Shown here piece after piece: positions 3,724-31,237 of a stretch of DNA of 37,110 nucleotides (position 1 is the stretch's first letter; the number at the start of each line of letters is the position of its first letter). The translations under genes were made by a program, and so were the position numbers. This stretch comes from Aeropyrum sp. (GTDB lineage: Archaea > Thermoproteota > Thermoprotei_A > Sulfolobales > Acidilobaceae). Below the pieces are notes generated by a model, which was not told the origin of the DNA, did not search any database, and saw only the letters and a list, made by a program, of their open reading frames with translations. The stretch covers positions 1 to 37,110 of the forward strand of contig WAKF01000005.1 of assembly GCA_015523465.1 (NCBI GenBank), written 5' to 3'.

Positions 3724-4558
3724 ACTCGAGCGCCCTGCAGCAGCTACAGGCCTTAGGGTCTGGGTCTCCCGCAAGCTGTGGTATCACCTTGTAGAGTATC
3801 TCTCGGGCCCTCTCAACGTTCTGCTTCATAACCCTCTCAACCTCCTCGGCTGTGACTGGCTTCTCAGCCCAGACGTCATAGTCTGTGACCATTGCTAGGG
3901 TTGCATAGCATAGCTGGGCCTCGCACGCAAGGTTAACCTCGGGGACCAGCGTCATCCCAATTATGTCGGCCTTGAACACCTCCCTCCAAACCCTACTCTC
4001 GGCTCTCGTGCTAAACCTCGGACCCTCAATGCAAACGTAAGTCCCGGTGCCGTGAACCGGGTACCCCAGCCCCCTGGCGGCCTCGATCAGCTTCTGGCGT
4101 AGGTCCTCACAGAATGGGTCAGCCATGCTAACATGCACCGTTATGGGGCCGTCGAAGAAAGTGTAGGCACCCCGATTCTTAGTCATGTCTATGAACTGGT
4201 CCGGCACCACGAAGTCACCGGGCCTATAGTCCTCCCTAAGGCTCCCGACGGCTGATACGCTTATAACCCACTTAACCCCCAGTGCCTTCAAAGCCCAGAT
4301 GTTTGCCCTGTAGTTGATCGCGTGGGGCGGGTACCTATGCCCCCTCCCGTGCCTAGGCAGGAAGGCAACCCTAACGTCTCCAACTCTCCCTACCACTATG
4401 AAGTCGCTAGGGTTACCGTAGGGAGTGCTAACCCTTACCTCAACAGGCTCCTCCACGATCCCAGGGTCGTAAAGGCCCGAACCCCCAATAACGCCAACGT
4501 GAGCCCTAACACCCTCAGGCCTAACAATACCCCCAAACAACAACCCCAGCCACCACAC
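3710..4558 (-). CDS. mtnP: S-methyl-5'-thioadenosine phosphorylase
   Basis: 282 residues of the PNP/MTAP trimeric family, which cleaves methylthioadenosine with phosphate to adenine and methylthioribose-1-phosphate. Visible marks: [12 protein letters not shown] phosphate-binding strand near the N-terminus, [40 protein letters not shown] (substrate Glu and phosphate Arg), [13 protein letters not shown], and MVTDYDVW with the Asp that sets purine choice. The C-terminus carries CSCC, like the CXC cysteine motif of heat-stable MTAPs. GTG 4558 has GGGAGG at 4567-4572 as a ribosome site. First gene of a compact minus-strand set; MTA would come from polyamine synthesis or other AdoMet use. Confidence 0.93.
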
Positions 4559-28409: not shown

Positions 28410-28725
28410 TTCAATCACCACATCTATATAACATCTAAAACCCTCTAAGAGGCTTAAGAAGGCCTAACAGCCTAGACTTAAAACCTATAAATTAGCCCAT
28501 GCAAGTTTCCCTGTTATTAGGCAGTCGCCACGTAATGACGGCCTAATCTTTAATATTTATCCTGTTACCCTGATTACCTATTTAGAATTTTAGAGACGAA
28601 AAATATTTCAACCCCGCCTAGGACTTCGAGAAATGTTAATACAGGCTCTGGTATGGGATGGATGATAAGGTTTATAAAGTGTGGCTAAGCCCCTTTTTGA
28701 AGGGCTCAGGGAGGTCGAGGATGCT
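28410..28725. other. AT-rich divergent intergenic region
   Basis: No gene. It holds the pyrF promoter region, an inverted repeat at 28516-28547, and the TATA box GTTTATAAAG (28669-28678) for the acidic gene. Base composition is visibly more AT than elsewhere. Confidence 0.6.
28516..28547. repeat. Inverted repeat ATTAGGC / GCCTAAT
   Basis: Seven-base perfect arms separated by 18 bases, mid-way in the pyrF to acidic-gene intergenic region. Could be an operator or a stem-loop. Confidence 0.45.
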
Positions 28726-28911
28726 ATGTCTGATTATGAGTTGGTTGTAGCTTTAAGGGAGGAAGAGGAAGAAGAGGAGTTCTGGGAGGATGAGGAGGAG
28801 GAAGAATTTTGGGAGGAGGGTGAAGAAGAGGAAGAGGAAGAGTGGGAGGAGCTTCTAGAAGAGGAGGAAGAAGAGGAAGAGTGGGGTGAAGAAGAGGAAG
28901 AGGAGTTCTAG
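28726..28911 (+). CDS. Hyperacidic poly-glutamate miniprotein
   Basis: 61 residues from ATG 28726. This start fits GGGAGGTCGAGG just upstream and the TATA box at 28669-28678; the GTG at 28681 would precede the expected transcription start. After a short head (MSDYELVVALR) the sequence is runs of 5 to 8 Glu broken by Trp and Phe (FWED, FWEEG, EWEELLE, EWGE). By count 39 Glu and 2 Asp in 61. The aromatic spacers suggest binding patches on a disordered or helical acidic rod. No family recognised. Possible roles: DNA mimic, cation or basic-protein binder. The coding strand is an almost pure purine tract. Confidence 0.7.
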   Translation: MSDYELVVALREEEEEEEFWEDEEEEEFWEEGEEEEEEEWEELLEEEEEEEEWGEEEEEEF

Positions 28912-29024
28912 CCCTCCCGGAGTGTTTTTAAAGTCTTACTACGTAACCCGATATATTCTCGGGCTTGATAACACCCATAGGAATTCCTTGATCCCTGTGT
29001 TCGGCTGGTACGTGGTGTACGTTG

Positions 29025-30053: not shown

Positions 30054-30884
30054 GTGCCTCAGCCCCTGGTGTCGAGGCCTTGTAGGGTAGTAGCTATTGT
30101 TAGCGGCGGCCCCGATAGCCTAGGGTACATGGCGCTCTGGCTCTCGAGGGGCTGTAACGCCCATGTCATAAGCGTTGTGTATGGTCAGAAGGCCGGTAAG
30201 GAAGTCCTAGTGGCTAAAAGGCTCGTGTCGGAGGTCGATAGAGTTGCTGAGAAGCGGGGTTGGGGTCGTGTTGTAGAGCATAGGATAGTCGATATCAGTT
30301 TCATGAAGGACTTGTGGAGGGGAACTCAGCTTACAGATGAGAGGGTTGAGGTTGAGAGGGACTATACTCCCAGCGTCGTGGTGCCCATAAGGAACGTTGT
30401 CATGCTGAGTATAGCCTCAGCCTACGCCTACACCATTCAGTCAATGACTGGGGAGAAGGTCTATGTAGTCTATGGGGCACACGCAGACGACATAAAGCCT
30501 AGGCAGGACACCGGCGAGCCCCTGTATCCTGACTGCTCGCCAGAGTGTATAGAGGCGCTGCAGACAGCATTCAGGCTGTGTCACGAAAGGGCTTCCAGGA
30601 CCCTCGAGATCTGGAGCCCCTCTAGGGAGGGGTATGGGAAGGCTGAGGGCCTGCGTAGGACCTACAGCCTCATAGGAAGCCTGGTATACGAGACCTGGAG
30701 CTGCTACCTAGACGGCAAGTATCACTGCGGCAGGTGTGAGAGCTGCATCAACAGGCACAAAGGGTTTAAGAGGGCTGGTATACCTGATTGCACCAAGTAC
30801 GAGGCTCCACCTGGCGACCCAGAAGAGTTCGTCAAGGTCGACGACTACTACCTGCATAAAAGCTGCGTGGAGGGTGGTGAATAA
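30054..30884 (+). CDS. queC: 7-cyano-7-deazaguanine synthase (QueC)
   Basis: 276 residues. PP-loop [13 protein letters not shown] binds [39 protein letters not shown] as in QueC; C-terminal zinc set [20 protein letters not shown]. Makes preQ0, the archaeosine precursor. GTG 30054 has GAGGTG eight bases upstream. Two bases separate it from the QueF-like gene. Confidence 0.93.
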
Positions 30885-30886
30885 CT

Positions 30887-31237
30887 GTGGAGGAAGGACC
30901 TAAGACTTTCTCGTGCCCAGAGGGCATAAAGATAGTCGTTGAAGGTTTTGTGGAGGCCAAATGCCCCTTCACGGGGGCACCAGACTTCTATGAGCTCAGT
31001 GTCGAGTATGTGAGCAGAGGGAGGTGTTTAGAGGCATTATCTTTCTCTAGCTGGCTCTCCCTCTTCAAGGATAAAAGCGTTAGCCAAGAAGAGCTAGCCC
31101 ATAGTATAGGCGTCTACTTGAAGAAGCTGCTAGACCCCTCTATAGTATGTGTTAGGCTTAGTGGGAGGCATGGAAGCCTCGACTTGACTGTAGAGTATTG
31201 CGTTGAGGGCTCTGCTATGGAGCCTTCAACACTCTAG
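30887..31237 (+). CDS. QueF-like amidinotransferase for archaeosine
   Basis: 116 residues. AKCPFTGAPDFYELSVEY holds the QueF catalytic Cys (C26) and Asp (D33); it lacks the NADPH-type E-specific extension, like the crenarchaeal QueF-L enzymes that add ammonia to preQ0 in tRNA to form archaeosine instead of reducing it. Follows queC by two bases, so the pair covers two steps of the pathway. GTG 30887. The stop shares CTAG with the convergent oxidoreductase gene. Confidence 0.88.
   Translation: MEEGPKTFSCPEGIKIVVEGFVEAKCPFTGAPDFYELSVEYVSRGRCLEALSFSSWLSLFKDKSVSQEELAHSIGVYLKKLLDPSIVCVRLSGRHGSLDLTVEYCVEGSAMEPSTL

Follow-up and report, generated by a model that had tools for sequence, protein, structure and literature searches.

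A hyperacidic glutamate/tryptophan mini-protein family of Thermoproteota and the linkage of its gene to ABCE1

An Acidic Mini-Gene in Aeropyrum

The gene described here lies on the forward strand of the window, by which we mean the whole stretch of 37,110 nucleotides of an Aeropyrum sp. genome that was analysed. It occupies positions 28726..28911 (+), from an ATG at 28726 to a TAG ending at 28911, and encodes a hyperacidic Glu/Trp mini-protein that belongs to a Thermoproteota-wide family. The translation, MSDYELVVALREEEEEEEFWEDEEEEEFWEEGEEEEEEEWEELLEEEEEEEEWGEEEEEEF*, is 61 aa long and includes 39 Glu, 2 Asp, 4 Trp, 3 Phe and 1 Arg, with 2 Gly in all and no Cys; its computed charge is about -40 and its pI 4.05, and 10 residues precede the acidic core. 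A sequence-only reading of this DNA had described a hyperacidic poly-Glu protein with Trp/Phe spacers, encoded by a stand-alone gene that has a promoter and a ribosome site to itself. Translation bears out the composition, and the expected signals are in place, namely a TATA-box-like element TTTATAAA (28671..28678, +; a consensus match only) and a Shine-Dalgarno-like GGAGGT (28710..28715, +) located 10 nt 5′ of the ATG. GGAGG also stands ahead of the acidic ORF in most members of the genus. An alternative in-frame GTG would extend the ORF to 28681, and since this start would lie only a few bases past the TATA box, the ATG at 28726 is the likely one.

The composition of the gene is exceptional within its own genome. 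Its densest 30-aa stretch holds 24 acidic residues, where the next best among the 365 open frames of at least 40 aa in the window holds 11, and six successive GAR codons, (GAR)6, occur at this single place in the 1.8 Mb assembly. The core of 153 nt is 86% purine. The earlier description of some 150 bases of nearly continuous purine overstates the case: the longest unbroken run is 25 nt, because codons for Trp, Phe, Leu and Asp interrupt it. No RNA was found at this locus with Rfam. AlphaFold2, run on the single sequence, returned one long helix (mean pLDDT 85, pTM 0.45), a result that is uninformative for a protein of such composition.

Downstream follows an EamA-family transporter gene (PF00892; 29022..29891, +), which is the syntenic neighbour within the genus only. 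This gene may use a separate TATA box, TTTAAA (28927..28932, +; a consensus match only), hence the acidic gene and EamA need not share a transcript. EamA was considered as a functional link and dropped, as other families have no EamA neighbour, and it is probably not part of the acidic gene's function. The upstream neighbour in the window genome is a divergent orotidine-5′-phosphate decarboxylase gene (PF00215; 27735..28421, -), at a position that is held by a methyltransferase elsewhere in the genus. Two further observations concern these surroundings. Adjoining QueC and QueF-like genes, which belong to archaeosine/queuosine-type pathways, are present at 30054-31237 of the window, and in genome G009 a weak match to the C/D-box sRNA sR14 (L033:1412-1463, minus strand; 29 bits, less than the gathering score) lies near the start region of EamA.

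Relatives Across the Phylum

An ordinary homology search with the acidic protein in 48 genomes of the family matched only the protein itself; there was no match in Pfam or NCBIfam, and a PDB sequence search gave none even at E=10. Relatives were found instead by DNA patterns and synteny, reading the DNA around orthologues of both neighbours. The syntenic acidic genes that the earlier reading had proposed to look for do exist, as each of the other five genomes of the genus, and one from a different genus, has an acidic ORF ahead of EamA. The genus-level alignment keeps an EEEEE-x-W block and a second Trp nearer to the C-terminus, and the last residues are all hydrophobic (F, F, I, L, I, L, F). 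Variation in length and frame between close relatives had been raised as a point against the gene: the length does vary (44-61 aa), but the frame is kept in all six members of the genus and in the one neighbouring genus, together with a core free of Lys, Arg and His and the hydrophobic C-terminus.

At larger scale, a DNA pattern for EEEExW[DE]EE was matched in 135 of the order's 214 genomes, typically at a single locus in each, while the reversed pattern, which served as control, gave matches near zero; a relaxed pattern recovered more of the order's genomes. The strict pattern was found in 133 of 397 genomes of the phylum. Nearly all of the ORFs that match are stand-alone proteins of about 25-65 aa, for example MIFEEEEEWEEEDWEEEEWEEEEW. 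When strict-pattern matches are counted together with ORFs seen beside ABCE1 (see below), a gene of the same design is present in at least 45 of the 68 sampled family-level groups of Thermoproteota; by these pattern and ABCE1-neighbour tests it was not found in groups f15, f21, f24, f30, f46 and f50. Viral contigs were also searched and yielded 38 pattern stretches, most of which are acidic parts inside, or closing, frames that are long or unrelated. One short frame on the minus strand of L287 (IMGVR_UViG_3300002966_000068, about 3804-3830), ending MEEEEEWEEEDWEEEWEEEEEE, is a possible viral copy of the mini-protein.

We found no paper naming such a family in a literature search whose range excluded most subscription journals. 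The E/W mini-proteins are an unnamed family, outside Pfam, NCBIfam, PDB sequences and the literature found. They illustrate how standard searches lose proteins of extreme composition: although the family extends over most of a phylum, the homology search brought up no relative.

Design and Selection of the Family

The shared design becomes clear from 133 distinct cores comprising 4405 residues, of which 74.6% are Glu, 12.8% Trp, 4.4% Asp, 2.7% Phe and 2.4% Leu. Lys, Arg and His are entirely absent from these residues, and Glu outnumbers Asp 17 to 1. The acidic runs have a mean length of 4.5 and a variance of 3.7, compared with 15.7 for randomly placed spacers, so that the regular aromatic spacing once claimed for the window protein holds true family-wide. 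The last residue is Trp in 86 of the 133 cores, where 15 would be expected from the interior frequency; it is hydrophobic in 105 and Glu in 27, and most ABCE1-linked members end EEEW. With Glu as the last residue of about one-fifth of the members, Trp at this position is not essential everywhere. The window protein conforms to the design, being stand-alone, with Glu runs, Trp/Phe/Leu spacers and a core without Lys, Arg or His; its C-terminal residue is Phe (it ends EEF), whereas the family mostly ends EEW. An amphipathic helix was tried as a candidate arrangement and rejected, since the hydrophobic moment at 100 degrees (0.331) gave no signal against random placement (0.336).

Codon changes point to selection at the protein level. 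There were 125 synonymous against 57 non-synonymous changes, where about 20% synonymous would be expected without selection, in sequence pairs taken at ≥80% protein identity, a threshold that itself favours synonymous counts; the six closest pairs topping the list gave 46 against 11. Changes at the third position make up 159 of 252, and GAA and GAG are mixed in the cores, which are therefore not a simple repeat. Among purine-only codons essentially those of Glu alone are used, with no Lys or Arg and little Gly. Since AAR, AGR and GGR are equally purine, the near-exclusive use of GAR shows that it is the protein, rather than purine DNA, that is under selection.

Linkage to ABCE1

Clustering of the neighbouring genes revealed that ABCE1/Rli1, recognized by the NCBIfam RLI model PRK13409 (1.4e-252) and PF04068, adjoins the acidic gene in dozens of loci. 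An independent survey in the reverse direction took ABCE1 as its starting point in 70 genomes, at roughly one per family, and had a match in 66. In 27 of these 66 genomes, representing 25 families, ABCE1 is preceded on its own strand by an upstream acidic ORF no more than about 1.2 kb away, whereas about 0.03 such genomes would be expected by chance (estimated by dividing 1.2 kb by both strands of 1.6 Mb and multiplying by 66). The linkage is also seen in five families of the window's own order. The distance between the two genes ranges from about 40 to about 1100 nt and is 38-90 nt in several families. At locus L160 the acidic peptide ends ...EEEDWEEEEDWEEEW, 49 nt before ABCE1, and a TATA-like TATAAATA lies between them; at some other linked loci no TATA box is evident in this gap, by a pattern that is loose in AT-rich DNA. 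The family combines conservation at the protein level with linkage to ABCE1.

A conserved motif, GCCGTCACCACTC[A/C/T/G][T/C]CAT, is also present, mostly in the gap between the acidic gene and ABCE1 (L143, L144, L146-L152, L165, L235 and L248, e.g. L148 at about 1694; also L122, L131, L177, L178 and L182). Its reverse complement starts with a C-box-like ATGATGA, for which reason the opposite strand probably carries a conserved C/D-box sRNA gene here; Rfam made no call on it.

The linkage is absent from the window genome, where ABCE1 is on contig C41 and the acidic gene on C5. In family f3 the acidic gene is divergent from a TFS-ABCE1 pair, and in most of f1 it stands between a methyltransferase and a convergent MiaB-like gene (TFS and the f1 neighbours were named by reading their sequences); both families keep the gene with no ABCE1 downstream of it and with convergent downstream genes. 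An ancestral linkage to ABCE1 has thus been broken several times with the gene kept, and the window lineage is one in which the linkage was lost and the acidic gene retained, still under selection. Retention where the linkage is broken argues for a product that acts in trans on something connected with ABCE1, and against a pure leader peptide. No acidic mini-ORF was found at 30 ABCE1 loci of another archaeal phylum, that of Methanohalarchaeum, nor at L342. Not found at these 30 loci or in several groups of Thermoproteota, the acidic gene is not a universal partner of ABCE1.

Possible Role in Ribosome Recycling

The genomes point towards ribosome recycling, since linkage of the gene to ABCE1 recurs over the phylum. 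The explanation that we prefer, at somewhat less than an even chance, is a trans-acting acidic-aromatic peptide that acts in ribosome recycling through ABCE1 or through the factor-binding region of the ribosome. Archaea are not known to have eIF3. A narrower version, which is tentative and rather doubtful, would make the peptide a phylum-wide recycling cofactor, i.e., a Glu-run/Trp array without a conventional fold that regulates or targets ABCE1 as the archaeal functional counterpart of eIF3j. We infer from the genomic data that the peptide is expressed, that it binds and that it has a role in recycling. The peptide consists of runs of 3-8 Glu broken by Trp/Phe and usually closed by a hydrophobic residue, mostly Trp. 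In the proposed mechanism, as gene linkage suggests, it would dock either on ABCE1, the ATPase that splits ribosomes, or at the ribosome's factor-binding region. By analogy with known systems, the Trp side chains might fill hydrophobic pockets while the Glu runs might contact basic surfaces against which rRNA or the stalk tail normally lies; the peptide would then be the soluble equivalent of aP1's acidic-hydrophobic tail or of eIF3j's acidic arm. That said, the linkage to ABCE1 could reflect mere co-regulation, and a Glu/Trp peptide may bind many basic surfaces.

The last point touches on an alternative that follows the sequence-only reading, a nucleic-acid mimic or charge buffer that neutralises basic proteins (chromatin proteins like Alba/Cren7, or ribosomal proteins in assembly) or binds divalent ions with no specific partner. 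A charge of about -40 on 61 residues, the lack of basic residues in every core and the low constraint on sequence beyond composition all agree with it, however nothing we found points to chromatin, and linkage to ABCE1 over 30 families, regular Trp spacing and the enriched C-terminal Trp would be left unexplained; we consider it unlikely. The same reading had also suggested unusual structure in the nucleic acid, and purine-rich DNA or RNA that is itself functional, with the ORF as a by-product, would suit a core that is 86% purine and varies in length among relatives. This is disfavoured to the point of being most improbable by an open frame kept across the phylum, the promoter and ribosome site, and the codon usage above, in which Glu codons are almost the sole purine-only ones, with none for Lys/Arg, GAA and GAG are mixed and third-position changes dominate.

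Two alternatives take the linkage to ABCE1 itself as their starting point. In one of them, which is quite unlikely, the peptide is an Lto1-like adaptor in Fe-S maturation; ABCE1 is an Fe-S protein, to which the C-terminal Trp would bring the machinery of Fe-S assembly. The EEEW ending of most ABCE1-linked members fits this, as does the C-terminal Trp of Lto1 that brings Rli1/ABCE1 to the CIA targeting complex (PMC4523923), and in one genome (G292, family f36; L330) the acidic gene (1510-1716, +) follows a SufC-like ABC ATPase (607-1389, +), a possible link to Fe-S assembly, although the SufC-like label comes from reading the sequence and Pfam gives ABC_tran only. Against it, the acidic protein lacks the deca-GX3 motif, its third-last residue is Glu where the eukaryotic motif has [ILM], the 27 of 133 members ending in Glu have no aromatic end, archaeal orthologues of CIA clients are without the motif and very few Fe-S proteins of M. 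jannaschii or E. coli end in Trp (PMC10623007). In the other, the peptide itself matters little: translation of an acidic, Trp-rich ORF would destabilise or pause ribosomes, and this event, as a nascent-chain sensor or leader peptide, would regulate ABCE1. N-terminal D/E runs do make ribosomes unstable in E. coli and yeast, and runs of Trp cause pausing (PMC9718836); the ORF is directly upstream of ABCE1 in many genomes, by 38-90 nt in several families, and some linked genomes have no evident TATA box in between by the loose pattern. Yet the distance is variable (about 40 to 1100 nt), L160 does have the TATA-like TATAAATA there, and f3, f1 and the window keep the gene with no ABCE1 downstream on the same transcript, often next to a convergent neighbour; we regard a leader peptide as very unlikely.

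A trans-acting peptide of ribosome recycling remains our preferred reading, and the ABCE1-linked family suggests a missing small partner in this process. Linkage to ABCE1 offers a concrete starting point for testing how the splitting of ribosomes and the release of the small subunit are assisted or controlled in archaea. The family itself, at 25-61 aa and with members in tractable Sulfolobaceae, is also a very small system in which to study how a Glu/Trp peptide can be specific.

Comparison with Known Systems

DSS1/Sem1 and prothymosin alpha are small hyperacidic proteins of eukaryotes, and DSS1 carries Trp/Phe among its acidic residues. They differ from the present family in their eukaryotic partners, their basic residues and their mixed Asp/Glu, and the likeness is one without recognizable homology. 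LysW is likewise a small and acidic amino-group carrier protein, with a carrier motif EDWGE. The window protein does not end in this way and, unlike LysW/ArgW, has no zinc ribbon, no Cys and no NCBIfam match. In genome G265, however, a Glu/Trp tail like that of the family, ending EEEEEW, is fused to a LysW-like zinc ribbon (L337:1527-1805, +; PF21344 above cutoff, NF041070 below cutoff at E=8.4e-10).

The N-terminal segment of eIF3j/Hcr1 is acidic and contains Trp. The protein is much larger (25.5-30.5 kDa) and has a further folded part, for which no counterpart beyond an acidic arm was found in the 61 aa of the window protein (no Pfam match), so this too is a likeness without recognizable sequence homology. 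eIF3j binds ABCE1 and assists it in ribosome recycling (PMC5737393, PMC7196836). Lto1, of the Yae1-Lto1 adaptor, has a conserved C-terminal Trp, or Phe in some organisms, and Rli1/ABCE1 as its client (PMC4523923). The family resembles it in the C-terminal Trp and in this client, but has no deca-GX3 motif, of which the window protein with 2 Gly in all shows no sign, and carries Glu in place of Ile/Leu/Met as third-last residue; the Lto1/CIA tripeptide (Ile/Leu/Met third-last, Trp/Phe last) is accordingly not seen in the EEF of the window protein.

The tail of the archaeal stalk protein aP1 binds translational GTPases and also the ATPase aABCE1 (PMC6791870). Like the window protein, it has an acidic run followed by a hydrophobic/aromatic C-terminus (KKEEEVDLSGLSGMFGF in A. 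pernix). The aP1 tail contains Lys and is attached to a dimerising ribosomal protein, and the N-terminal dimerisation domain was not found in the window protein, which has no Pfam match and only 10 residues before its core. In contrast to aP1, the window protein is stand-alone, its core is without Lys/Arg, and its units of Glu run and Trp extend along the whole length.
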